Assembly (NCBI GenBank): GCA_018499905.2
Contig: JAHBAU020000037.1
Location: 1 to 38,058 of the forward strand
Direction of reading: 5' to 3'
Source of the DNA: Candidatus Saccharimonadota bacterium
Lineage (GTDB): Bacteria; Patescibacteriota; Saccharimonadia; Saccharimonadales; AQU-01
Length of the DNA: 38,058 nucleotides
Below the pieces are notes generated by a model. That model was not told the DNA's origin. It saw only the letters and a list, made by a program, of their open reading frames with translations, and made no database searches. The position numbers and the translations under genes were made by a program. Every line of letters begins with the position of its first letter. Positions within the stretch are counted from its first letter, which is position 1. Below, piece after piece: positions 1-38,058 of the stretch.

Positions 1-99
1 CTTCATTTGGCTGTTGTGACTGCGCCTCGCGCTGTTGTTGCTTGGCTTCCATGTATTTAACCGACAATTCTTTAAGATGGTCGATACCACGAATGTCCA
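1..99. repeat. Left copy of 99-bp terminal direct repeat
   Basis: These 99 bases are identical to the last 99 bases of the window (37960-38058). The portal reading frame continues through the join, so the repeat is best read as the overlap left by assembling a circular or circularly permuted molecule. The unit length is then 37,959 bp. A true short terminal repeat is less likely, because the repeat lies inside a gene and P22-like phages package by headful. Confidence 0.95.
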
Positions 100-4148: not shown

Positions 4149-4655
4149 TTATGATGTCAAACCAAAACGCTGCTCGAGTATTCTGCGGCCCTTATGAATC
4201 CTAGAGCGCACGGTGCCGATGGGTACATCAACCGCCATGGCTATTTGCTTGTAATCCATATTGCCAGCTAGCCATAAGAGCATAGTTTCGCGATAGGGTT
4301 TTGGTAGGCACATTAGGCATTGCTGCAGCCTATCTCGGGCCTCTTGCTCATTTAACAAGTCTTCAGGTGTTGTTTGTGTTTTGGATGCATGATAAGCGTC
4401 ATCAAACTGCACTGTTTTGGCGTTGCGCAGCTTGTGTTTGAAGGTGTTTAGTGTGTAGTTAATAGCTATGCGAGTAATCCAAGTAGTGTACTTGCTACGA
4501 CCCTTAAAACTAGCCCGGTTAGTCCAGGCGCTAATAAACACCACTGAGGCAATATCCTCAATTTGAGAGCGATTGTATACATATCTGCCTATTACACCAC
4601 AAACCTTAGAATAATTCTCTCTATACCTTTGGGTAAACAATTCTGTCTCATCCAT
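4149..4655 (-). CDS. ECF-type RNA polymerase sigma factor
   Basis: A 168-residue protein with the two-domain plan of ECF (group 4) sigma factors. Sigma-2 lies at about residues 6-75, with a core-binding stretch DIASVVFISAW and a -10-recognition-like segment TTWITRIAINYTLN. After a short linker, sigma-4 lies at about 104-160, including LPKPYRETMLLW and a helix-turn-helix around YKQIAMAVDVPIGTVRSRIH. No region 1, 3 or C-terminal extension and no anti-sigma gene is seen. It is the first gene of the leftward late direction, upstream of terS. Redirecting host polymerase to late or other phage promoters is my inference. A perfect TATAAT lies 29 bases upstream of its start. Confidence 0.9.
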   Translation of the reverse strand: MDETELFTQRYRENYSKVCGVIGRYVYNRSQIEDIASVVFISAWTNRASFKGRSKYTTWITRIAINYTLNTFKHKLRNAKTVQFDDAYHASKTQTTPEDLLNEQEARDRLQQCLMCLPKPYRETMLLWLAGNMDYKQIAMAVDVPIGTVRSRIHKGRRILEQRFGLTS

Positions 4656-5701: not shown

Positions 5702-6589
5702 TTATAAGTTTTTGGCTATCTTTTCTGCCTGGGTTAGTTCTTCTTCGTCTTCACTTTCGGCAAAAAAGTCAGCCACTACAGCGTCCTCTGCATGTCCAGC
5801 ATCTTTCATCTGTTGCTTGGCCGCTTTCTTTTCTAGCTGCAGCATAACGTCGCTAAAGCTCTCGGCGTGCATCAGCTCTAGGGCTGGGATGCGCAAATAA
5901 GCACAAATGCCCTTTTCTTCGGTTTTAGTGGCGGCTATTGCCTCGCGTAAAATCTTAATTTGCTCTTCAGTTACCAAGTCCTGGCGCACCACCTCGCCTG
6001 CGACTATGTCGCCACGCCTAGCTTTTTTAGCTGGCGCACCATCATAGTTAGCAGCCGGAATATCTTGCGCTTCCTCGGAGCTTATAATACCACGCAATAA
6101 ATCGGGAAAGGAGTCGCGCAAACAAAAACCACGCGCCCGCATCTGCAGCATTCTCTTGGGGTACTGAGTCCACGGCCCTTGCTTGCCCCAAAGACTCGCC
6201 ACCTTGGCGTCCTCTTTAGAAAATGTGCTTACAAACTCTGGCTCGTTTTTACGCTTAATTACACAAGTTGCCACCATGGTATCTTCTTTAACATTTTCAT
6301 TAATGTACTCAAACTCCGGGGATTGGCGGCAAACTGCAAGCATAGCATCGCCCCACAAGCTTGGCCGACCATTAATTACCGCTATGTTTTGTAGCGCCTG
6401 CATCGGCTTCAAGCCTAGTTCTTGGCCCATCTGTAGGCATACCAATACATCTCCAGGCTTACCCCTAAATACCTGCGGACAGAAACTAGACTGCGCTATG
6501 TATTCACTACACTTAAGGGCCTGCTCTAAAGTGGCAACCGACATGAAACCGCCGGTGCTAGCTGTAGTTGTTAATTCGTTATTACTCAT
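5702..6589 (-). CDS. recT: RecT-family single-strand annealing protein
   Basis: A 295-residue recombinase that would anneal complementary single strands produced by the adjacent exonuclease. Family-typical segments are FRGKPGDVLVCLQMGQELG, LKPMQALQNIAVINGRPSLW with GDAML, the KSxPEFE-like region, and WTQYPKRMLQMRARGFCLRD followed by FPDLLRGI. The C-terminal third is acidic and poorly conserved, as usual. The start ATG overlaps the exonuclease stop and has a GGGAG site. The exonuclease-annealase pair is a complete Red-like recombination module. In P22-type phages this helps to circularise or concatenate infecting DNA. Confidence 0.9.
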   Translation of the reverse strand: MSNNELTTTASTGGFMSVATLEQALKCSEYIAQSSFCPQVFRGKPGDVLVCLQMGQELGLKPMQALQNIAVINGRPSLWGDAMLAVCRQSPEFEYINENVKEDTMVATCVIKRKNEPEFVSTFSKEDAKVASLWGKQGPWTQYPKRMLQMRARGFCLRDSFPDLLRGIISSEEAQDIPAANYDGAPAKKARRGDIVAGEVVRQDLVTEEQIKILREAIAATKTEEKGICAYLRIPALELMHAESFSDVMLQLEKKAAKQQMKDAGHAEDAVVADFFAESEDEEELTQAEKIAKNL

Positions 6590-7541
6590 TTTTATCTCCC
6601 GGTGTTAAAACTCTAAATGGACGGCTAGCGTTACCTGTTTTGCTGTAGTGTTTATACATCTCTGGCCGCTCTTGTTTAAATTTTGCGCTGTCAAACCTCT
6701 CAGGGGCTTTGCTAAATTTCCAGCTAATTAGCCGCTCTCCAACCTCGTTAACCATTAGCTGTTTATCGCCCATTCTAACGCACAACTTGTCGCGCAATAA
6801 CCGTAGTTGTTCTTGCTGCTCGGCAATTAAAGCATCTAAAGCCTTATATTTTATCACCAACACCTCCTCCTCTGTGCTTGCGTAATATGGATCAAAGCTA
6901 GTGGCCGCAGGATACATTAACTTAATGTCGTTTTCAGTTAACGGGGGCGGCATGATATCGGTTAACACATGGTTATGCCAGAAATCGCTCTCAGCCTTAA
7001 TTAGTTTTTCTTCTAGTTTTAAGCTTCTTTCATATTCATACCAACGCATCTCGCGGGTGGTGGTAAATACTACAGCCACATACGCCTTATCAAAATTGCC
7101 CACCGCACAATAATGCGCCACCTGTAGCAAGTAATGGGTAGGCATCTCATTAGTGTCACGCCCCCAGTCCTGGTCGTTATACGCGGTCTTGCACTCTAAA
7201 ATTGCGTTCTCATCAGCCAAGAACCTATCTACATTGCCAGCCATCCAAGGGTAATCTTTATGCACCAGCATCGGCGAGCTGGCCGAATTCGGCCCATTAA
7301 TAACCGAATTCGGTTTTAATTTTTTACCGCTCTCAGCCTCAAACCACTTAGCCACGCCATCTTCCATATAGTTTCCGAACTTTATATGGTTAAGGTTAGA
7401 TAAATCATCGGGCTCACTTTTACCGGTTTTTTCCATCCATACCGCGAAAGGAGTGCGGTGCGGGGATAAGCCGCAAATAGCTGCAGCGTCCGAGCCGGTA
7501 ACATAGCTGAGCCTCTGTTGTAACTGCTCTTGCGTTAGCAC
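6582..7541 (-). CDS. YqaJ/lambda-type exonuclease
   Basis: A 319-residue 5'-3' double-strand exonuclease of the YqaJ viral recombinase family. The PD-(D/E)xK-like core is visible: YVTGSDAAAICGLSP near the N-terminus, KFGNYMEDG (Glu60), MAGNVDRFL (Asp105) and AILECKTA (Glu116 and Lys118). A helical QVAHYCAV region follows, with VAVVFTTTREMRWYEYER after it. The C-terminal half contains a short coiled coil. The start is a GTG at 7541 with an upstream AAGGGG. It heads the leftward recombination operon and is served by the leftward promoter at 7577-7605. Confidence 0.9.
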   Translation of the reverse strand: MLTQEQLQQRLSYVTGSDAAAICGLSPHRTPFAVWMEKTGKSEPDDLSNLNHIKFGNYMEDGVAKWFEAESGKKLKPNSVINGPNSASSPMLVHKDYPWMAGNVDRFLADENAILECKTAYNDQDWGRDTNEMPTHYLLQVAHYCAVGNFDKAYVAVVFTTTREMRWYEYERSLKLEEKLIKAESDFWHNHVLTDIMPPPLTENDIKLMYPAATSFDPYYASTEEEVLVIKYKALDALIAEQQEQLRLLRDKLCVRMGDKQLMVNEVGERLISWKFSKAPERFDSAKFKQERPEMYKHYSKTGNASRPFRVLTPGDKNE

Positions 7542-15609: not shown

Positions 15610-15975
15610 TTAAATTAAATCAACGCTCGCATCCGCTATTGCGGATGTATCGTATTCATCCACCATAGGATATTTTTTCTTAATCACTTCACGAATCTTT
15701 TGCAAAGCTTTGGCGTCCTCTGGACGATTTTCGACCACCATTTCCCATAAGCATACAACCATTTGATTAATACTGGGATATTCAGCATTTCTTTTTTGTA
15801 TATATTTTATTTTCTCATCTTCAACTGCTAATTCTCTTAGCGCAACCTCTACTTCTTCTATAGTAGGCTTAGGTAAATCATTATGAATAATTAATGAATT
15901 ATAATCCTCGCCTGTAACGGAGAAAACCAATTCCGGAAACTTGTGACGTAATGCTCGGCATAAATTAGAACTCAA
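15610..15975 (-). CDS. Small protein among tail-fibre genes
   Basis: A 121-residue protein. It starts at a TTG that overlaps the preceding stop (TTGA), with GGAG 8 bases upstream. It begins SSNLCRALRHKFPELVFSVT and GEDYNSLIIHND, then a PTIEEVEVALRELA helix. That resembles small phage proteins carried beside fibres, possibly assembly chaperones of the XkdW kind, but I am not certain. The C-terminal half is helical (AKALQKIREVIKKKY). Unlike its neighbours it is rich in Glu and Lys, so it is probably not itself a fibre. Confidence 0.6.
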   Translation of the reverse strand: MSSNLCRALRHKFPELVFSVTGEDYNSLIIHNDLPKPTIEEVEVALRELAVEDEKIKYIQKRNAEYPSINQMVVCLWEMVVENRPEDAKALQKIREVIKKKYPMVDEYDTSAIADASVDLI

Positions 15976-16424
15976 GATGCTATCTCCATTAATACAATAT
16001 CAAAATTAGATGAGGTGATTGTAACGCGACTAAAAGCTGAATAATGCTGAAATTTATAAGCCGTAGCTGATTGCGAACCAGGGGCATCTACAAAATTATA
16101 ATTACATACAAATTGACTGCCATTACCGGCAGTGTTGTTGGCGCAAGTAATCTGCGAATATGGCGAACCACCTATTGTAGTCACCCCCCGCAAGCACTGA
16201 AAATAGCCAACGGTATTGGCCACAGCATAAGGTACGCTCATATAAAAGGTGGCCGCCACTATTATCTTGCTGCTGGTGTAATGCGGTGCAATTACAGCAA
16301 TTGCGCCGGTAATGTCTACAGCTGTAGAGCTATTAGTAGAACTGCCACCGCCGTTTACATAAACAATCTGCACTATGTTTCCTAGGGCTTTTTGACCAAC
16401 TGAACTAAATGCACTATTACTCAT
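15972..16424 (-). CDS. Jelly-roll-like tail protein, paralogue 2
   Basis: A 150-residue beta-rich protein. It shares with its upstream neighbour the start MSNSAF, then VQIVYVNGGGS, a STAVDITG segment, YFQCLRGVTTIGGSPYS, ATAYKFQHYSA and the end NFDIVLMEIAS. The two are tandem duplicates with roughly half their residues conserved by eye. The compact beta pattern with a conserved C-terminal strand looks like a small receptor- or carbohydrate-binding jelly roll. Start and previous stop overlap as TAATG. Confidence 0.65.
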   Translation of the reverse strand: MSNSAFSSVGQKALGNIVQIVYVNGGGSSTNSSTAVDITGAIAVIAPHYTSSKIIVAATFYMSVPYAVANTVGYFQCLRGVTTIGGSPYSQITCANNTAGNGSQFVCNYNFVDAPGSQSATAYKFQHYSAFSRVTITSSNFDIVLMEIAS

Positions 16425-16882
16425 TAGGCCACTATCTCCATTAATACAATATTCATGTTAGAGGTAGTAATGGTTGGCGCATTAGCGCTACCATAATGCT
16501 GAAATTTATACGTAGTGGCTGAAGTTGTAGCAGGATTGTCAACATAGATATATCCGGAGGCAGAATCGGTAACACAAGAACCAGAGCTTAATAACGCCCC
16601 AACTAGCGCATAAGGGGTTCCACCAATAATAGTTGAAGTCCTTACGCATTGAAAATAACCGCTAGTTGCTTGCGCAACAATTGCTCCGACATCATTATAC
16701 CAAGTTGCCCAAACTAGAATCTTATTCGAAGCCGAAGTTGGCGTAATAGTAGTTGAGCTACCGGTGATATCCACCGCAGTGGTACTAGAGGTAGCACTTC
16801 CGGCGCCATTATTGTAAATCACCTGCACGACGCTACCAGTTAATGATGCTGTGCCTGAAACCGTGAATGCACTATTGGACAT
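16424..16882 (-). CDS. Jelly-roll-like tail protein, paralogue 1
   Basis: A 152-residue beta-rich protein, paralogue of the next gene downstream (MSNSAF, VQVIYNNGAGS, TTAVDITG, YFQCVRTSTIIGGTPYA, TTYKFQHYGS, MNIVLMEIVA). The second of two adjacent ATGs (16882) has better spacing from AGGGG. It follows a 61-residue tail-type gene with overlap. The variable parts between the conserved strands are where the two copies differ, as expected for binding loops. Confidence 0.65.
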   Translation of the reverse strand: MSNSAFTVSGTASLTGSVVQVIYNNGAGSATSSTTAVDITGSSTTITPTSASNKILVWATWYNDVGAIVAQATSGYFQCVRTSTIIGGTPYALVGALLSSGSCVTDSASGYIYVDNPATTSATTYKFQHYGSANAPTITTSNMNIVLMEIVA

Positions 16883-17057
16883 CATTAACCCCTGTGTCGT
16901 AATTAACCTCAGTAATTAAAACGCCCTCTTCTTTGTCTTTTAGATAGCGTCGATAATCACCATTATCTAAATCAGCTGGAATCCAGGCACCATCTGGCAG
17001 CCTATGAATTAATTGTCTGCCGCCAGCTATTACATGTTCATAAGTATAGTTACTCAT
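16872..17057 (-). CDS. Small tail-associated protein
   Basis: A 61-residue protein. The segment GAWIPADLDNGDYRRYLKDKEEG follows the common phage pattern Ile-Pro-x-Asp-x-x-Asn-x-Asp-Tyr-x-x-Tyr-Leu. That pattern is found in small proteins and fibre C-termini near tail genes. The rest is a short strand-rich start (TYEHVIAGGRQLIHRL). It lies between the adhesin triplet and the jelly-roll pair and overlaps the latter. The precise role is unknown; an assembly helper is plausible. Confidence 0.6.
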   Translation of the reverse strand: MSNYTYEHVIAGGRQLIHRLPDGAWIPADLDNGDYRRYLKDKEEGVLITEVNYDTGVNDVQ

Positions 17058-17066
17058 ATAAGCCCC

Positions 17067-18392
17067 TTAAACTAAACCACGCTCTAAAATGTATTGATAA
17101 GCCATGCTATCACCAATTGCAGCCCCCGCCACCCCTGAACCGCCTAAACGTACCGAGTTATTAGTTAACAACGTAGTTGGAGCGCCACCGGCTTGTGCAG
17201 AGCGCGTCACATTATATGCGCGCCCCGCGGTGGCCCCTGCTGGGTTGTAAGTGGTTAGGCCGGTGGTTGATGGCACCATCATTCGTTGTAATTGATAAAC
17301 AATACCATTGCTAGCGGTTGCCCCTGCCACCGTTGCTGGGGTGTATAGCTCGCCATTACCAAGGCCCGGATTATCTACCGGAGCCACGCTGTACAAGAAA
17401 GTCTTTTGATAATAGAACTGGCAAGACTTTAGCTGCTGGGCAAAACTTTTGCGCTGGAACGATGTTGCCTGTGGGGCAATCTCTAGCTGCACGTCAGTGA
17501 TAAAGAAACTATCATCAGCCCCAGCCGTTCCTGTTGGTGCCATAGTAAACTGTATAGCTAACTGGGTAACTGTGGAGCCTAAGGTTGAACTGCTGGCTGT
17601 GAAACTGGTCAAGGTAGTGCTCAATGTTACCGAGGTTGATATAGGGCTCGCACTTCCTGTGTATGCCCCGTTTATACCGCTAGTAAAGCCTGTTCCGGTA
17701 CCAGAATAAACCGTAACGCTCAATAACGAACTAGTTGGCGAGTAGTTGGCACCACACTTGGCTTTAAAAGATAGCGTTACCACGTTCCCTGCCGCCCCAG
17801 TGCAAGCATCAAACACAATAGATTGACAGAAAGCTACGTTACCTGTTCCGGTTTGGCCGTTATTGCGCTGCACCTTGGCTAACCAAGAACCAGAGGTGGC
17901 CCCAGCCGTTTGGGTGACGGTAAATGCCTGATTAGTGCCAGTTGCTAGCTGCCACATATCAGCGGTATAAGCAGTGGTTGATGCTGCAACTGCAATGGCT
18001 GCAGCCCCGCCAGCGCCTCTCTGCCACACCTGCATGTCACCATTTATTGCTAAATTATTGCCAGTAATACTAGCTGGTAAATCCACGGCTATAGTGCCGC
18101 TACTGGTAACGGCAGAACCGGTTACCGTTAACGTGGAGCTGGAGACTGCAACGCTAGTAACCAAACTGTTGGTAGCCCATTTTACCCCAGCGCTTTGCGC
18201 AGAGTCGGCGGTTAATGACTGACCATTGGTGCCAACTGCCAGGCGAATATTATTAGTGCCATCTCGCACAACAATATCGCCCTTAGTGGTTAGGGGCGAT
18301 AAATTATTAAACGCGGCAGCTGCGGTCGTAGCATTCGTGCCGCCTTGCGCGATAGTTAGTGTAGTGCTGGTATTGGCTATATTAATTGTCAT
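17067..18392 (-). CDS. Tail adhesin paralogue 3 of 3
   Basis: A 441-residue protein with the plan of its two upstream neighbours. An N-terminal fibre repeat is GGTNATTAAAAFNNLSPLTT, then KGDIVVRDGTNNIRLAVG and SLTADSAQSAGVKW. A jelly-roll-like domain follows ([42 protein letters not shown], then [20 protein letters not shown]). The C-terminal domain starts near FYYQKTF and is the most diverged of the group. Start and preceding stop overlap (TAATG), with GGAG in the last codons of the upstream copy. Confidence 0.8.
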   Translation of the reverse strand: MTINIANTSTTLTIAQGGTNATTAAAAFNNLSPLTTKGDIVVRDGTNNIRLAVGTNGQSLTADSAQSAGVKWATNSLVTSVAVSSSTLTVTGSAVTSSGTIAVDLPASITGNNLAINGDMQVWQRGAGGAAAIAVAASTTAYTADMWQLATGTNQAFTVTQTAGATSGSWLAKVQRNNGQTGTGNVAFCQSIVFDACTGAAGNVVTLSFKAKCGANYSPTSSLLSVTVYSGTGTGFTSGINGAYTGSASPISTSVTLSTTLTSFTASSSTLGSTVTQLAIQFTMAPTGTAGADDSFFITDVQLEIAPQATSFQRKSFAQQLKSCQFYYQKTFLYSVAPVDNPGLGNGELYTPATVAGATASNGIVYQLQRMMVPSTTGLTTYNPAGATAGRAYNVTRSAQAGGAPTTLLTNNSVRLGGSGVAGAAIGDSMAYQYILERGLV

Positions 18393-19711
18393 TATGTTAA
18401 CTCCGCAACCAAAGTTACATGATAGCTTGCGCGGTCGCCGGTAGTAGAGCCAGCATCACTGTTGCCGGTGACGGCTAATCCATAAAGGCTGGAGACCGCA
18501 ACTGTGCTAGAGGAAAAGTCAGCAGCAGTGGTAACGTTTCTTATCTGCGCATTGGCGGCCGATGGATTATACAAAGTGGCCGTTGGAGCAGCGCGCATAT
18601 AGTTAGGCAGCATCAGCATAGCGCCGGTGTTAAATGCATTGGCGGCCACCACTGATAAGCTTATTTCCCCGGTTCCGGTGCCCACGTTTTGCGCAGGGGC
18701 TGTGCCGTAATTAAAGCTCTTATAATAAAAAGCCTGGCACTGGTTTAGCTGCCAAGAATATGTGCGCCTTTGAAAATTAGTGGCTTTAGGGGCTATCTCC
18801 ACCTGGACATCGCCCAGATAATAACTATCATCTGCGCTAGCAATCCCCGTTGGGGTGTAGCTAAACTGCAAGGCAAGCTGGGTTACAGTTGAGCCGATAG
18901 TGGAACTTGTTGCACTAAAACTAGTTAAGGTGCTAGTTAATGTAACGGAGGTTGATACGGGGGTCGCGCTGCCTGTAAAAGCGCCATTAATCCCAGATAT
19001 ATCAGTTGAGCCAGTCCCAGTATAGAGCGTAACCGACAAGGCGCTGCCAGATGAGGAAAAATTAGCACCTGATTTGGCCTTAAAAGACACCGTAACAACA
19101 CTTCCTGCAATGCCTATGCACATGTCTCGTGGCAGGGACTGACAAAAGCGCATTGGATCTGTGCCAACTGCCGCATTATCTCTTTGCACCTTAGCTAAAT
19201 ATGAGCCACTGGTTGCGCCAGCAGTTTGGGTAACCGTTGAAGCACCCCCCGCCGCAGTAGAAATTTGCCACCTATCGGCCGTATAAGCAACAGTAGAAGC
19301 CGCAACTGAAATTGCCGCGCTACCATCCGCCCCTCTCTGCCATACTTGAAAATCACCATTTATCAATAAATTATTGCCAGTGATGCTCAGTGGAGCATTT
19401 ACCGTAATAGTGCCGGAGGTTGTAATTGGGCTACTAGCCACAGTCAAGTTGGTGCTGCTAATACCAGCACTAGTTACGGTCCCCGAGACGGTCGCCCATT
19501 TATTGCCAGTGGTTTGCGCGGAATCTGCCGTAAAAACAGCGCCATTGCTGCCCACAGCTAAACGGGTGTTAGTAGTGCTATAAGTTAACACGTCCCCCTT
19601 GGTTGTTAAGGGTGATAAATTATTAAAAGCAGTAGTTGCGGTTGTCGCATTGGTTCCACCATTGGCCACAGCTACCGGTATGTTAAAGTTACATTCGTTA
19701 TTGGTACTCAT
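18392..19711 (-). CDS. Tail adhesin paralogue 2 of 3
   Basis: A 439-residue protein. The same three parts are present: fibre repeat ([36 protein letters not shown]), jelly roll (NLLINGDFQVWQRGADGS, YTADRWQIS, VVTVSFKAKSGANFS, ASADDSYYLGDVQVEIAP) and C-terminal domain (QCQAFYYKSFNYGTAPAQNV, SAANAQIRN). It starts MSTNNECNF, unlike the other two copies (MTIN). Its ATG overlaps the upstream TGA. The upstream gene's last codons GCGGAGTTAACATGA supply its ribosome site, an arrangement copied in the next gene pair. Confidence 0.8.
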   Translation of the reverse strand: MSTNNECNFNIPVAVANGGTNATTATTAFNNLSPLTTKGDVLTYSTTNTRLAVGSNGAVFTADSAQTTGNKWATVSGTVTSAGISSTNLTVASSPITTSGTITVNAPLSITGNNLLINGDFQVWQRGADGSAAISVAASTVAYTADRWQISTAAGGASTVTQTAGATSGSYLAKVQRDNAAVGTDPMRFCQSLPRDMCIGIAGSVVTVSFKAKSGANFSSSGSALSVTLYTGTGSTDISGINGAFTGSATPVSTSVTLTSTLTSFSATSSTIGSTVTQLALQFSYTPTGIASADDSYYLGDVQVEIAPKATNFQRRTYSWQLNQCQAFYYKSFNYGTAPAQNVGTGTGEISLSVVAANAFNTGAMLMLPNYMRAAPTATLYNPSAANAQIRNVTTAADFSSSTVAVSSLYGLAVTGNSDAGSTTGDRASYHVTLVAELT

Positions 19712-21024
19712 GTTAACTCCGCATCGGCTGTGTAGTGAAATATAGCTCGACCATTAACTGCGCTGCCTGCAGCAGATGTACCGGTGACTGCAAAACCACC
19801 GCGGCTAACAGTAGCGGTAGTTGAGCCGGTATAGTCGGCCGCCGCTGTTTGATCATTAATCTGTGCGTTGGCGGCAGTTGGGTTATACAAGGTTATAGTT
19901 GGTGTTGCCCGCATAGTGCTAAAAAAACCAAAATAGTGTGAATTCTGAGTAACCGCTCCAGCCCTGGCGTTTTCAAAAGCTAGGTGACCTGAAGATGTGC
20001 CGACGTTTTGCGCAGGTGCGGTATTGTAGTTAAAAGATTTTTGGTAAAACGGCAAACAAGCCAGCTGCTCTTGCTCAAAAGATTTATTTTGAAACTTGGT
20101 AGCTTGCGGTGATTGCTCTAACTGTAACTGCAACACAGTTACACTATCATCGGCCCCCGCCGTGCCAGTTGGGGTAAACTGAACATAAACCGCCAGTTGC
20201 GTAACAGATGCGCCAAGGGTGCCGGTGGAGACTGAAAAGCTTTGTACCGTAGTAGATAGTGTTATCGAGCTTGTGGCCTCTAAGGTTGCACCCGTGAAAC
20301 CGGTTGAGAGCTGAGAGACGTCGGTTGAACCGGTGCCACTATAAATTGAAATCACTGCTAGCGAACTAGTTGGCGAGTAATTAGCCCCGCATTTAGCCTT
20401 TAACGAAAAAGTTACCACGTTCCCAGCTGACCCTATGCACATATCTCGTGTTAGAGACTGCGCCAAGGTTATGGTGCCTGTTCCGGTTTGGCCGTTGTTA
20501 CGCTGCATTTTAAGCGTGTAGATATTGTTAACAGTACCTAACTGCAAAGACACCGTAGATGCCTGATTAGCCCCGCAGCTAAATTGCCATCTGTCAGCGG
20601 TATACTGCGTAGTGGACGCTGAAATGCTAAAACTGGCGCTATTACGCACGCCCCGCTGCCAAATCCACAGCGTGCCGTTAGCCAACATATTGTTGCCAGC
20701 CACGCTAATTGGCGTATCAATGGTTATGGTGCCAGAGGTGGTTATCGGTGTGCTAGCAATGGTTAAATTAGTGCTGGTGATGCCAAAGCTTGTAACGGTG
20801 CCAGCGGCGGCATAATTTAAACCCGATGCCTGGGTAGAGTCAGCAATTAATACCGTGGTATTGGCCCCAACGGCCACCCTCGCATTAGTGGTAGTGTAAC
20901 CCGCCACGTCCCCCTTGGTAGTTAACGGCGATAGCGCGTCAAACGCATTGGTGGTTGTAGCCTGCCCTGTTGCGCCATTAGCAATTGCAATTGGGTTGCT
21001 AAAATTAGCCGGATTAATTGTCAT
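19708..21024 (-). CDS. Tail adhesin paralogue 1 of 3
   Basis: A 438-residue protein. Fibre repeat ([20 protein letters not shown]), jelly roll ([52 protein letters not shown]) and C-terminal domain ([31 protein letters not shown], then [20 protein letters not shown]). The C-terminal end is close to that of copy 2 and of the spike at 23757-25871. These are likely alternative or co-assembled receptor-binding proteins. The start overlaps the stop of the long fibre gene (ATGA). Confidence 0.8.
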
Positions 21025-23312
21025 GCTGGTGTTAAGTTACCCCATGCTGTTTGGCCAACGAATGTGGTGTTGGCGGTAGTGCAAAGAATTTCCACGCAAT
21101 CATATCGATTGCTAGAAGCTAGCGTGCCAGCGCTAGAGGTGGCGCTGCTACCGGCATTAATTATCTGCCCGGTATTAGCTTGTATTATCCAGCCGCCTGA
21201 CGACTGGCCCGAGATTCTAAAATAAAATCCACGCTGGGTGGTGGCCGGAATAGTTAAAGTCACCAATGATGCGCCATTATCAATTATATACCCGGTTTGG
21301 TCCGCCACGGTTACTGAGCTAGATGCCACATTTACCCATGAGAATACCGTTGGCGTGCTAGGGATGACTTTGCCACGATAATTGTTAACGATAGCACCGG
21401 TGGTGCTATAGGCGACAAATAACGGCTTGGATATGTTGCCAATAGTTGTAGGCTCGGTTGCAGTATACGCGCCCGCAGTTGAGTCTGAAAGGAAATATAC
21501 TGTGCCAGCGGTTAGGCCAGAGAGGGTTGTTATTTGGCCGTTAGTTACCAGCGTGAAAGTATTGGCATCTACTATGACTGATATAACCCCTACCGATTCA
21601 GCGGTGGATGCGGCATCCGCCTTGGCCTTGGTGTAGGTGGAGCTGTTTAAATACACTACATCGCCGACGGCAAAACCATGTGCAGTTTGGCTAACGTTAA
21701 AACTGGTGGCAGCCCCGCTAGCAACGGTTGCCCAAGTCGCATCCCCACGCCAGAATGTGGTAGCCGAGGCTGAGGTGCCGGAGTTTAGGTTTGCAACTGG
21801 TAAATTGCCGGTCACGCCATTCGCCAGATTTACTTGCGCCCAAGCTGGATTATTAGTGGTGCCAGTGTTGGAGAGATAGCGTGTAGCGTTTGTATCTTTC
21901 GCCAAGGCGGTTAGTGTGTTAGCCGCTGAGGCGTATAACAAATCGCCCTGAGCGTAAGTGTCAGGGATGGTAAATGTTGAGTACACGTTATTGGTGCCAT
22001 CAGCACGAATCACTTTGCCAGCGCTACCTGATGCACTCGGGTAAGTTGGCGTAGACCAGCTAGGGGCCGCATTGCTGCCAGACTGTAGTACTTTTCCAGC
22101 GGTCGCGGTGCTAGCTAATAATGCAAAGGCTGCAGCAGTAGAATAAACAATTGCGCCATTATCGGCCACCAAACTAGCATTGGTGCCACCGCGAGCTAAA
22201 GATAGCTGGCCTGTCCAACCAGCGGTAATTGAGGTTGCCTGTAGCAGAGCGGTCGTAGGCGAGCCGCCCAAGGTTAAGGTTACGTTAGTATCGTCAACCT
22301 TAGTTAACGCGGCTGGAGTCACTGCCGGAATACTCTGCCAACTCGGCAACACCGCCGCGCCATTTGAAGTTAAGACTTGACCCGTAGTGCCAACCCCGGA
22401 TACGTTTTGGAAAGCACCGGTAGCTGTAGTGCCAGCACAAATTACGCTGTAGGCGGTAAATGTAGTATTAGCTGTGCCCCCATATTGGACCTCCAGTGGT
22501 GTAGTTAATCCTATAGTTGGAGTTGCCCCGCCAGTGCTAGTTATTGGCGCGGTGACACTAATAGAAGTTACTGGAGCCGTACCGCTACTGGCCGCGGTTA
22601 TGCGCCCATAGGCGTCTACCGTTAAAGAAGTATTGGTATAAGAGGCCGGAGTTACCGCCGTGACTGCCAAATCAAAAGTTGGGTCCCCCGCCAGGCCAGT
22701 TGGATTAGTTATAGTTATGCGCGAACTAGAGCCTGTAGCTAGCGTTCTAGAATTTAATACCCCAGTAGCTGTAGTGTTTGCTAGAAATCCTGTGGATAAA
22801 CCGGAGAGAGGTATGCTATTTGGTGCACTAGCTGTTTCGTTAGTCTTGGTGATATAGGTTAAATTTGCTAAAGCACCACCAGCAGCCGAGGTCCAAGCCA
22901 GTGTTAATGGGTCATACCATTCAAACAAGCCAGATGTAGTATTAACTCGGGTATCCCCTGCCACACCAGCTGGCCGCTGCCCTGTAGTACCAGAGGGAAT
23001 GGTAAACGCCGTAGTGCCCGACACTTTTACCTGACCAGTTAAACCGCGTCCAGACAAAGACAGGTCAACGTTAGTATCGCCGCCGGTTGCAGCAATTAAC
23101 GCCGGATTGCCAGAGGATGCGCTAGTGAAAGTTACATAGTTGGTGTTGGTGCCGCCCCCCGGAGTCCAGCCCAGCAGGTAATTACCGGCTGAATCTTTAA
23201 TGCCAGTACCGGGGAAATCAAACTGGTAGTTTAGGCTGTTACGTAAGCCTACAACTATGTCATCCACCCGCGCTTCATCGCCGGTCGTGAACTGGTCAAA
23301 CTTTACTGACAT
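21021..23312 (-). CDS. Long tail fibre protein
   Basis: A 763-residue beta-rich fibre. N-terminal attachment-like segment: [20 protein letters not shown], then [15 protein letters not shown] common fibre motif follows ([33 protein letters not shown]). The middle is a series of short repeats ([37 protein letters not shown], each with a following GQVL or GKVL strand). The C-terminal domain has [20 protein letters not shown] and [11 protein letters not shown]. It precedes the three adhesin paralogues in the same operon and probably forms the shaft or a longer fibre. Confidence 0.8.
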
Positions 23313-23318
23313 TTAGCC

Positions 23319-23732
23319 CTACTCCTGTATGGCGTAGAATGAAATGGACATTTCCCCACCGACGGTTGCGGTTATGGCGTGAATTACATCCCCGGCTTGC
23401 ACATTCCAAGCAGTAGGGTTTAGCTGAGAATTGCTAGCGGCTAGTGTCGCACCAGCTGGAACCGCAGCGGTTGCATTTAATGCTACAAACACATCCGCTG
23501 GCGTTTTTACCCCATAACTAAATATAGCTATCCACTTATTATGCGCAACCGCAGTTGTTGGATCTGTGGGTGAGCCAATCATACCTAGCGCCCCCAAAGG
23601 GTTAGATGATGGCACGGTGACTGTGGCCTCCGTTGCAGCTGCAAAGGTAACTGTGTAGTTGTCTTTGCAAGCTTGCAACGCAAAGCCGTTTACGCCTCTG
23701 GTTGTTGGGTTAATGTTGTATGGTACTGGCAT
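23319..23732 (-). CDS. Small virion-associated protein of unknown function
   Basis: A 137-residue beta-rich protein between spike and fibre genes, with a strong AAGGAG ribosome site. It begins MPVPYNINPTTRGVNGFALQ. The pattern of short strands (NYTVTFAAATEATVTVPSS, KWIAIFSYGVKTPADVFVAL, ISFYAIQE) resembles a small capsid- or fibre-decorating domain. I do not recognise a specific family. Position suggests a tail component or fibre connector. Confidence 0.6.
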   Translation of the reverse strand: MPVPYNINPTTRGVNGFALQACKDNYTVTFAAATEATVTVPSSNPLGALGMIGSPTDPTTAVAHNKWIAIFSYGVKTPADVFVALNATAAVPAGATLAASNSQLNPTAWNVQAGDVIHAITATVGGEMSISFYAIQE

Positions 23733-23756
23733 TTAAATTCACTCCTTAAAAAATCT

Positions 23757-25871
23757 TTATTGTCCAAGTCTAGCGTCTGCTGTCCAATGAATGCCGCAAC
23801 TCTCGCCTATTGATGAACCACCGGCAGTAGTGCCGGTAAACTCCACGCCTTTTAGAGATATATTTACCGCAGCAGTTGCAGACCAGTCCGCAGGGGATGC
23901 CGAGGTATTTCTAATTTGTGCGTTATTACTAACAGGATTGTACGAAACAATCGTGGGGGTTGCATACATTGCTACTGGAAAAGAAACATAAGGCCCGAGC
24001 GATTGTGCGCTTGATGCAGGGGATGTTTGCGCCGCGATTTCAAAAGCGGTGCCCACTTGGGTCGCTGGCTTGGTTTGTGGCAAAAATGACTTTTGATAAT
24101 AATAGTAACAGTCATCGGCTACGCTATTGATACTTTTGGGCGCGGGCCTGGTTGCAATATCCCCTGGCACCAATGATACAGATTGGAAGCTGATGCTTTT
24201 AGTGTTAGCGATAGAGCCAGTACCCACCACAATGGCAAAGAACGTGGCGTTATAAATATCTGAGTCCCCCTCCATATCCCAGCCAAAAGCTGAATAGTCA
24301 GCAAAATCGCTATTGGCCGACATGGTTAGCTCCGCGCCGTTATCGCCCGCCCCAGTACCCAAGCCCCCGCGAGGCACAGGCACCCATGTGCCGTTTTGCG
24401 TAGTGGGGTAACCATCAGCATCTAGGGTTAACACGATTGAGTTGTTAGAGCCAATTGTAGAGGGAAGAGATACATCGGTGGTATACCACAGCGACACGGT
24501 TAACGTTAGCGCCGTTACCGAGCTAGTTTTGGCGTACACATTTACCGCTAAGCGATTTTGTAATATTTCTCTAGCAATAGTTGCTGGCTGGTATTGCACA
24601 ATAGCTAGCTGAGTATCTGTTGCCGCAGTTAAAACTAAGGCCCCACTAGTTGCGCGACTGGTCGTGAAAGCACTGTTGGCTGTTTGGAACACTATAGTTT
24701 GGTCCCAGACATAGGCCGACTTATTGGCACCAATTGCAAAGGCGGTAACAGTTGAGGTTAAAAACTGCGCTGGGTTTAACGGAAAGTCCCAGGCGGTTAA
24801 AAAACTATTAATGGGTTTTTCTGCCAATAAAGGTTTGTAGTGATTAAATAAATGGTCAACTTGACGATTAACCGGCTCTTGAATAAAAGCAATTCCGGTA
24901 GTGTTAGTCTCTAGCCCCACTACCTGCACGCTGCTGACGATAGATGTGCCGGAGGTTGGCAAGTTAATAACTATATCTACATAACCTAAGTCCGCAGTGG
25001 CAGTATTAGCCGAAGCCGGTAATTGCACAGTGCCGCTAAAGCCTACATATTCTGCCGAAGCATTCGCCGCCGTTAATAAAGTCGTTACGGCCCCAACATT
25101 TGGCTCATATGTAACGGTCACCGTAGTGGTTGGGCCAGTTAAAATATATGTTGCCACATAGCCGTTAACCGCGTCAGGTTTTGGCGACCAAATTCCTGGG
25201 TTATGGCTTAATCTCTGCACCAATTGCAACGCAGAGATGCTGCCGGTTACCACAAAAGTCATTGTGTATGGTGGATTGGTGGGGTAGTTAAGGTCGCCTC
25301 GGATTGCATTACGATTGACGGTTATAGTGCCCGCGCCAGTATAAGTAGCAACCAAATCCCAGCCTGGGGCGATTGCAAAAGCAGTAGTGCCGGAGCCGGA
25401 AACAGCTAAACTTAAACCTAAATCCGCATCAAAGTTAATATCCACAAACTGGGGATTAGTTAACAGGTTCTCGGAAATGCCGTTTTCACTAGCTACCTGT
25501 TCAGCTAAGGTGTCAGGCCAGCCTTCGCGAGTGAATTGTTGCACCCCCAGGCTGTTAAATACCGCCACGTAATACAGCTCCACATTACCTTCATCGTCAA
25601 ACGGATAATAGTAGAGGGCCACATTGTTACCGTTGGCATCCTGCACCGTGCCCACCGAACTTAGGGTCACCGGGTTAGGCAGCGCCACATACGTATACAC
25701 TGGATTGCCCGAGGAATCAGTGGAGCTTGTCTGCTTGCTGTAAACTAGTTTTGGCGCTGTGCGGTCTGAATCTTTCCAGAACTGTACATAACCGCCAGAC
25801 AGCGGCGTGCCATCATCCTTGGATACAAAATACTGCTCTAAATCTACCGAGGTTATGTAAGATGTGGTCAT
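23757..25871 (-). CDS. Tail spike or fibre with N-terminal virion-binding domain
   Basis: A 704-residue protein. Residues 1-120 (ISVDLE-like start, DDGTPLSGGYVQFWKDSD, LPNPVTLSSVGTVQDANGNN, GVQQFTREGWPDT) recall the layout of the P22 tailspike head-binding domain. Two jelly-roll-like domains follow (ENLLTNPQFVDINFDADLG; FLTAWDFPLNPAQF). From about residue 575 it carries the C-terminal domain shared with the adhesin triplet (CYYYYQKSF, VSNNAQIRN). No pectate-lyase-like coil is obvious, so enzymatic activity is not claimed. The ATG has an AGGGG site; both lie in the loop of a 12-bp stem (25845-25909). Confidence 0.8.
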   Translation of the reverse strand: MTTSYITSVDLEQYFVSKDDGTPLSGGYVQFWKDSDRTAPKLVYSKQTSSTDSSGNPVYTYVALPNPVTLSSVGTVQDANGNNVALYYYPFDDEGNVELYYVAVFNSLGVQQFTREGWPDTLAEQVASENGISENLLTNPQFVDINFDADLGLSLAVSGSGTTAFAIAPGWDLVATYTGAGTITVNRNAIRGDLNYPTNPPYTMTFVVTGSISALQLVQRLSHNPGIWSPKPDAVNGYVATYILTGPTTTVTVTYEPNVGAVTTLLTAANASAEYVGFSGTVQLPASANTATADLGYVDIVINLPTSGTSIVSSVQVVGLETNTTGIAFIQEPVNRQVDHLFNHYKPLLAEKPINSFLTAWDFPLNPAQFLTSTVTAFAIGANKSAYVWDQTIVFQTANSAFTTSRATSGALVLTAATDTQLAIVQYQPATIAREILQNRLAVNVYAKTSSVTALTLTVSLWYTTDVSLPSTIGSNNSIVLTLDADGYPTTQNGTWVPVPRGGLGTGAGDNGAELTMSANSDFADYSAFGWDMEGDSDIYNATFFAIVVGTGSIANTKSISFQSVSLVPGDIATRPAPKSINSVADDCYYYYQKSFLPQTKPATQVGTAFEIAAQTSPASSAQSLGPYVSFPVAMYATPTIVSYNPVSNNAQIRNTSASPADWSATAAVNISLKGVEFTGTTAGGSSIGESCGIHWTADARLGQ

Positions 25872-37692: not shown

Positions 37693-38058
37693 CATTGCCC
37701 CCTTGTAGTGTTTTAACAGTTTTAACTGCTAGCTCAACTGCCGTTCTTGCTTGTTCTGCGGCCAGCTTTTCTTTCTCGATGGCATCTTTTTTATCGCCCT
37801 GCTCAATCTTGGCTAACATTTCAATAAATTTAATTTGCGTTTCTTGCTCTTTAATGGCAAGTTCAGCCGCCTTGTTGGCTTGCACACCTTGCGCCGCCTC
37901 TCGACGTTGCTCGGTCTCCATTTGAGTTTTTTGTAGCTCAGTTTGCGCTAGAATCTCCACTTCATTTGGCTGTTGTGACTGCGCCTCGCGCTGTTGTTGC
38001 TTGGCTTCCATGTATTTAACCGACAATTCTTTAAGATGGTCGATACCACGAATGTCCA
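37685..38058 (-). CDS. Portal protein, C-terminal part (joins 1-1876)
   Basis: The end of the 716-residue portal protein. Bases 37960-38058 repeat 1-99, so the reading frame continues from base 1 to base 37959 of the circular unit. This part is rich in Gln, Glu and Ala (KQQQREAQSQQPNEVEILAQ, LQKTQMETEQRREAAQGVQA, LAIKEQETQIKFIEMLAK) and strongly helical, as in the long barrel of the P22 portal that extends into the capsid. It stops at 37685 and overlaps the next small gene by 8 bases. A frame starting at TTG 38026 is only an artefact of the contig end. Confidence 0.88.
   Translation of the reverse strand, partial: DIRGIDHLKELSVKYMEAKQQQREAQSQQPNEVEILAQTELQKTQMETEQRREAAQGVQANKAAELAIKEQETQIKFIEMLAKIEQGDKKDAIEKEKLAAEQARTAVELAVKTVKTLQGGNDD
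37960..38058. repeat. Right copy of 99-bp terminal direct repeat
   Basis: Identical to bases 1-99. It demonstrates that the contig closes into a circle of 37,959 bp, or that the packaged DNA is circularly permuted. Confidence 0.95.

Follow-up and report, generated by a model that had tools for sequence, protein, structure and literature searches.

The well-studied phages with multiple adhesins display different tips on shared anchor domains. In the Ackermannviridae the branched tailspike complex (TSP1-4) comprises several receptor-binding proteins which are encoded in neighbouring genes and between which recombination has been observed; these tailspikes have N-terminal assembly domains in common, whereas the receptor-binding part differs (PMC11414711). 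For the T5-like phage DT57C it has been proposed that LtfA/LtfB form branched lateral fibres in which one protein joins the tail through the other and both carry recognition domains (PMC4728585). Two similar short tail fibre paralogues per genome, which vary little between genomes, are found in the Vequintavirinae (PMC8594841), and an apparent excess of tail fibre genes has been noted in the Sulfitobacter phage PhiGT1 (PMC10386132). Loci with several receptor-binding proteins are already known, and the combination of a beta-sandwich with a tip is widespread in phage tail fibres.

Here we describe a window (the whole stretch of DNA that was analysed, 38,058 bases) with three tandem fibre genes, C, B and A, downstream of a gene at the spike position, S. 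New here are the tandem duplication of a whole fibre with its tip in a P22-like podophage and the comparative evidence on the domain that moves. No direct precedent for tandem fibre paralogues in podophages was found in the open-access papers searched, and one may exist elsewhere. In contrast to the Ackermannviridae tailspikes, homology between A, B and C extends from end to end and takes in the tip, and assembly domains of that kind (XD/TD) were not identified in the Pfam and NCBIfam comparisons. With DT57C the array would share a fibre that is connected via another fibre protein, both having recognition domains; DT57C is, however, a siphovirus with two such proteins, whereas three full-length paralogues are found here in a P22-like podophage. 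The likeness to the Vequintavirinae consists in fibre paralogues in one genome, but their paralogues closely resemble one another, whereas A, B and C have diverged strongly. In our case the whole fibre has been duplicated, the synonymous sites have been randomised, and a sister array suggests which domain was exchanged and which was kept distinct. The locus thereby offers a natural comparison for asking how a phage comes to have several attachment proteins and which roles tip and sandwich play.

The phage genome and its late gene run

The same 99 bases stand at both ends of the window (1-99 and 37960-38058), so that the contig probably holds a phage genome in full; the most fitting interpretation is a podophage genome of ~37,959 bases that was assembled as a circle. 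It encodes the small and large terminase, portal, major head protein, Hc3 head-closure protein and scaffold as well as a DNA-ejection-like protein and an endolysin. The portal matches phrog_156 (E 9e-56) and the Hc3 protein phrog_578 (E 2e-33), which we take to be the P22-type portal and head-closure/tail hub families. Judged from these two predicted proteins the window is a P22-like podophage with a putative short non-contractile tail, and portal, large terminase and head-closure protein are the homologues on which the likeness to the P22 tail rests. Unlike in P22, the protein at the spike position lacks a PHROG or Pfam match and has a fibre tip at its end, and additional fibre genes come after it. 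Near-identical phages were not found by blastn in the phage collection.

The late genes follow each other on the minus strand in the order S, E, D, C, B, A, Y, X2, X1, Z with short gaps or overlapping ends; the last of them, Z, encodes 121 residues.

23757..25871, minus strand: gene S, spike position, 704 aa, with relatives in 45 viral contigs; tip at about residues 569-704
23319..23732, minus strand: gene E, 137 aa, small conserved protein; almost all relatives whose sequence covers this place have it between the spike and the first fibre
21021..23312, minus strand: gene D, 763 aa, first fibre, with a conserved N-terminus of ~32 residues, a repeat stalk and its own, different C-terminal domain
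19708..21024, minus strand: gene C, 438 aa, first tandem paralogue (phrog_4492, E 2e-28), its tip being the nearest to the spike tip among A, B and C
18392..19711, minus strand: gene B, 439 aa, second tandem paralogue, structure predicted (phrog_4492 tail fibre, E 6e-36)
17067..18392, minus strand: gene A, 441 aa, third tandem paralogue (phrog_4492 tail fibre, E 4e-26)
16872..17057, minus strand: gene Y, 61 aa, after the array here and in the contigs L005, L006/L007, L133 and L143
16424..16885, minus strand: X2, 153 aa, first of a second pair of tandem paralogues (49% identity to X1)
15972..16424, minus strand: X1, 150 aa, second of this pair (49% identity to X2)

Gene E has no match in PHROG, Pfam or NCBIfam, and A, B, C, D and S likewise lack a match in Pfam and NCBIfam.

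At 4149-4655, adjoining the terminase genes, lies a gene with a match (E 1e-18) to phrog_1740, a family of phage RNA polymerase sigma factors, and at 5702-7541 overlapping genes encode a RecT-like annealing protein and a RecE/YqaJ-like exonuclease. The GC content of the window is 44.8% compared to 48-51% in four sampled contigs of its bin, and the tetranucleotides differ too. No spike relative was found in 59 genomes related to this bin; among cellular genomes spike relatives occur in only two MAG contigs, one from a betaproteobacterial and one from a Desulfosporosinus bin. A 16S gene was not found in the genome to which the window is assigned. Given the deviating composition and the missing spike relatives, the phage contig may have been wrongly binned with its small-genome bacterium.

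The spike was also used as a query for related loci. It matched 45 viral contigs, several of which are the same or near-identical phages and the longest of which measure about 36-42 kb. Nearly all of these relatives, as far as their sequence reaches, have E next and then at least one fibre gene. In L008, L010/L102, L133, L143 and L166 one fibre of the A/B/C type stands behind S and E, in many cases as a fusion with a long D-like stalk, and in the window there are three; overall its copy number at this place ranges from 0 to 3. In contigs in which no spike was found there are three copies (L005) or two (L006/L007), followed by Y. Other fibre families stand in tandem at the same place in six relatives (L111, L113, L123, L124, L127, L128/L129). 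With its varying copy number and these tandem sets of other families, the locus downstream of S and E is an expansion site where fibre genes have multiplied repeatedly, the window being one example. As a separate observation, the set in L123 (12213-19913) consists of four tandem fibre genes with the C-terminal domain of D, which are up to 62% identical over 583 residues.

Three fibre paralogues and the tip of the spike

That three paralogous putative adhesins lie in tandem had been predicted from the sequence with exact coordinates, and this was borne out: the open reading frames of 441, 439 and 438 residues on the minus strand are similar over essentially their full length, with identities of 56% (A-B), 52% (B-C) and 45% (A-C) and E values of 1e-102 to 1e-145 (BLASTP). 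All three are built from a fibre segment of ~105 residues, a CBM4-like beta-sandwich and a tip domain; in A these parts correspond to residues 1-105, about 110-308 and 309-441.

23760..24167, minus strand: tip domain of the spike, homologous to the array tips
19711..20115, minus strand: tip domain of C
18797..19384, minus strand: CBM4-like beta-sandwich of B, residues 110-305 (AlphaFold2 pLDDT mostly 80-97)
18395..18796, minus strand: tip domain of B, residues 306-439 (pLDDT 72-95), homologous to the spike tip
17070..17468, minus strand: tip domain of A, which pairs with the tip of L005 copy 3 (95/94)

The original prediction also held that the spike ends in the same C-terminal domain, and our results are in agreement with this. 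In BLASTP the C-terminus of the spike is 35% identical to C over 153 residues (E 2e-18) and matches B with an E value of 7e-15, and the pairwise match to A is weak (E 0.007). Composition does not account for this likeness, as none of 1000 composition-preserving shuffles reached the observed score (z = 27.8, 20.8 and 8.5 for C, B and A, respectively). A profile-profile comparison of the spike tip with the array tip gave a probability of 99.9 and an E value of 2.4e-35 over 123 columns. The shared domain comprises ~125 residues and runs from a short helix before the motif YYQKSF to the end of the protein. It belongs to the spike in most of the spike relatives and is thus an old part of it. Further upstream no similarity is detectable: the beta-sandwich of the array was not detected in the spike by profile comparison (probability ~1%), and the spike model, with a mean pLDDT of 71 and a tip mostly under 70, found only generic jelly-roll matches.

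The structure of B was predicted with AlphaFold2 from an alignment of 46 sequences. Residues 110-439 are well predicted, including a confident beta fold for the tip at about residues 329-437, and the first 108 residues have a pLDDT under 50. The predicted sandwich, at residues 110-307 in the model, superimposes on the carbohydrate-binding module CBM4-2 (2y6j; VIA Z 14.7, rmsd 2.5 over 153 residues) and with Z about 13 on phage tailspike and fibre domains (8iqe, 7xyc, 5w6h), being near to domains of the K2-2 tailspike, Kp7 gp52 and CBA120 TSP4. The model thus assigns it to the CBM4/16/22-type beta-sandwich (jelly-roll) fold, and sugar binding is putative, as a shared fold alone demonstrates no function. 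No solved structure related to the array, B tip included, was found by sequence, and none credible for the spike.

By their C-terminal profile matches, which span positions about 700-1096 of the 1096 of phrog_4492, A, B and C can be assigned to the phage tail fibres with sandwich and tip. The layout has numerous matches among viral structures in BFVD, and the named ones are mostly tail fibres; examples with a similar sandwich and C-terminal tip are fibres of Ralstonia phage phiAp1, Xanthomonas phage OP1h and uncultured Caudovirales. Annotated phages matched by gene B (tblastn) have such a sequence in a single place each and none covers 80% of the gene, whereas the window has three tandem full-length copies. 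Homology, domain fold and gene neighbourhood together support the naming of A, B and C as a probable receptor-binding array with a distal domain common to the spike.

Age of the array and probable exchange of a domain

At four-fold sites A, B and C are 0.26-0.40 identical, compared to about 0.30 expected by chance, and the longest exact DNA stretches shared among them measure 15-20 bp. Synonymous sites at chance identity indicate an ancient array, and recent gene conversion among the three genes was rejected from the same numbers. The duplications appear to be even older than the split from the phage of contig L005. In the tip tree A pairs with L005 copy 3 (95/94) and B with L005 copy 2 (99/96), two of the three tips thereby pairing by position, and a clade of A, B and C is rejected (p 0.03-0.05), from which we conclude that the duplications predate the split of the two phages. 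C and L005 copy 1 pair clearly in neither the tip tree nor the sandwich tree.

The inner sandwich has a different history. In the sandwich tree copies 1 and 2 of L005 join each other (96/91), which is incompatible with a pairing of B and L005 copy 2. As an unrecombined gene could not yield both trees, the sandwich was probably exchanged or homogenised between the L005 copies while the tips stayed distinct, a conclusion that rests mainly on this one phage pair. The sandwich tests of B with L005 copy 2 shift with the taxon set, the pairing being rejected in two (p 0.0003 and 0.016) and not in a third (p 0.087). Recombination between copies, as originally envisaged, would thus belong to the past of the L005 array and not to the present state of the window, where exact DNA matches reach at most 20 bp and synonymous sites are saturated. 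The RecT-like and RecE-like proteins of the phage could serve such an exchange of sandwiches.

The tips of spikes and arrays form separate clades (100/99), and a clade uniting the spike with A, B and C is rejected (p 0.0003). A tip copied from the spike within this genome was rejected by the same test; the match to the spike reflects deep homology, and according to the trees the spike tip takes no part in recent exchange with the array.

The original prediction had further noticed that the ribosome-binding site is copied in the last codons of the genes.

19717..19720, minus strand: GGAG ribosome site within the final codons of C and 9 nt ahead of the start codon (ATG) of B
18401..18404, minus strand: GGAG ribosome site within the final codons of B and 12 nt ahead of the start codon (ATG) of A

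This is correct for the junctions from C to B and from B to A, as C and B terminate with the identical GCGGAGTTAACAT. A ends otherwise, however, and in L005 the copy preceding Y also ends with CGGAGTTAACAT, whereas the site is absent at one of the two internal junctions. The site in the last codons is therefore not a general mark of the copies. Given the codon usage of these genes, the exact spelling of the four AELT codons is expected about once in 130, and four-fold sites of B and C elsewhere are close to chance. Thus, we read the shared gene end as a ribosome site retained in overlapping genes and not as a fresh copy. The starts and stops of the array overlap or abut, and the run S, E, D, C, B, A is tightly packed and probably translationally coupled.

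Proposed docking of the fibres and role of the tip

With moderate confidence we regard as the best reading that A, B and C are translationally coupled distal tail-fibre adhesins with diversified tips. The N-terminal 32-residue segment of D is kept in the first fibre of many relatives or in a protein of 146-160 residues that replaces it, and it is missing in A, B, C and the later fibres of the relatives. These often start with the motif N-x-hydrophobic-N, which begins 19 distinct later fibre genes compared to 1.9% of internal 12-mers, the motif having been defined after the sequences were seen. D or its adaptor would be anchored to the tail. As no array member carries the N-terminal segment of D, docking is probably via their own N-termini: A, B and C would each attach by the short N-terminal peptide (N-x-hydrophobic-N) and the fibre segment to the assembly of D, E and spike. 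Each of them would be a homotrimer ending in sandwich and tip, of which either or both may bind cell-surface glycans, and the copies may persist because their tips recognise different surfaces, with the inner sandwich being occasionally exchanged between copies.

The divergence of the domains fits a recognition role of the tip, which in most pairs diverges faster than the sandwich. Between A and B the sandwich is 68% identical and the tip 35%, and between A and L005 copy 3 the values are 68% and 47%. B and C are equal (49% for both domains), so that the faster divergence of the tip is not uniform. Given the tip divergence, it is plausible that the array widens the host range. A tandem pair of sandwich-tip fibres on another contig of 66 kb (L187, 7839-10162), in which one base is common to stop and start, has the opposite relation of A and B, its tips being 62% and its sandwiches 52% identical; the fetched stretch contains no spike relative.

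Alternatively, the C-terminal domain shared by spike and fibres might serve folding or trimerisation, or act as a chaperone-like tail, and be needed by both for assembly; receptor binding would then be carried out by the CBM4-like sandwich. CBM-like folds of other proteins bind sugars, the spike carries the tip even though its inner domains are unlike the array sandwich by sequence, and the most regular part of the domain is its extreme C-terminus (AD[AS]RLG in the majority of spikes and AD-A-[ED]-[LVI]-[TV] in the majority of array members). Nevertheless, we hold this to be unlikely, since both the mostly faster divergence of the tip and the separation of the tips by position in two phages would be expected more of a recognition surface.

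Somewhat less likely still is one hetero-oligomeric or serially joined fibre made of A, B and C, comparable to the parts of the T4-type distal fibre. The fixed order of the overlapping genes would suit such a fibre, as would the conserved N-terminal segment being present only on D while the array members begin directly with the fibre segment. However, the relatives L008, L133, L143 and L166 manage with a single gene of this type, often fused to a stalk, and partners of the same kind are thus unnecessary. It is very improbable that the copies are largely redundant and kept by chance or dosage without distinct specificities: architecture and length are the same in all three and tandem duplication recurs at the locus, but the tip lineages of A and B have been separate since before the L005 split, the synonymous sites are saturated, and the open frames have survived that long.

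The reading of A, B and C as distal adhesins with diversified tips can be extended, though doubtfully, to the locus as a whole. It might be an evolvable fibre locus in which fibres of several unrelated families, docking via a short N-terminal peptide, are duplicated in tandem behind spike and E, with sandwiches homogenised and tips diverging by position, and which would give the virion several specificities without a branched system of anchor domains.

Further down the same gene run lies the tandem pair X2/X1 (15972-16885), which had been overlooked by the earlier reader. Both genes have an identical 21-base stretch near their ends that contains GGAG ahead of the next gene, and in contig L018 an X2-like domain comes after a fibre segment.
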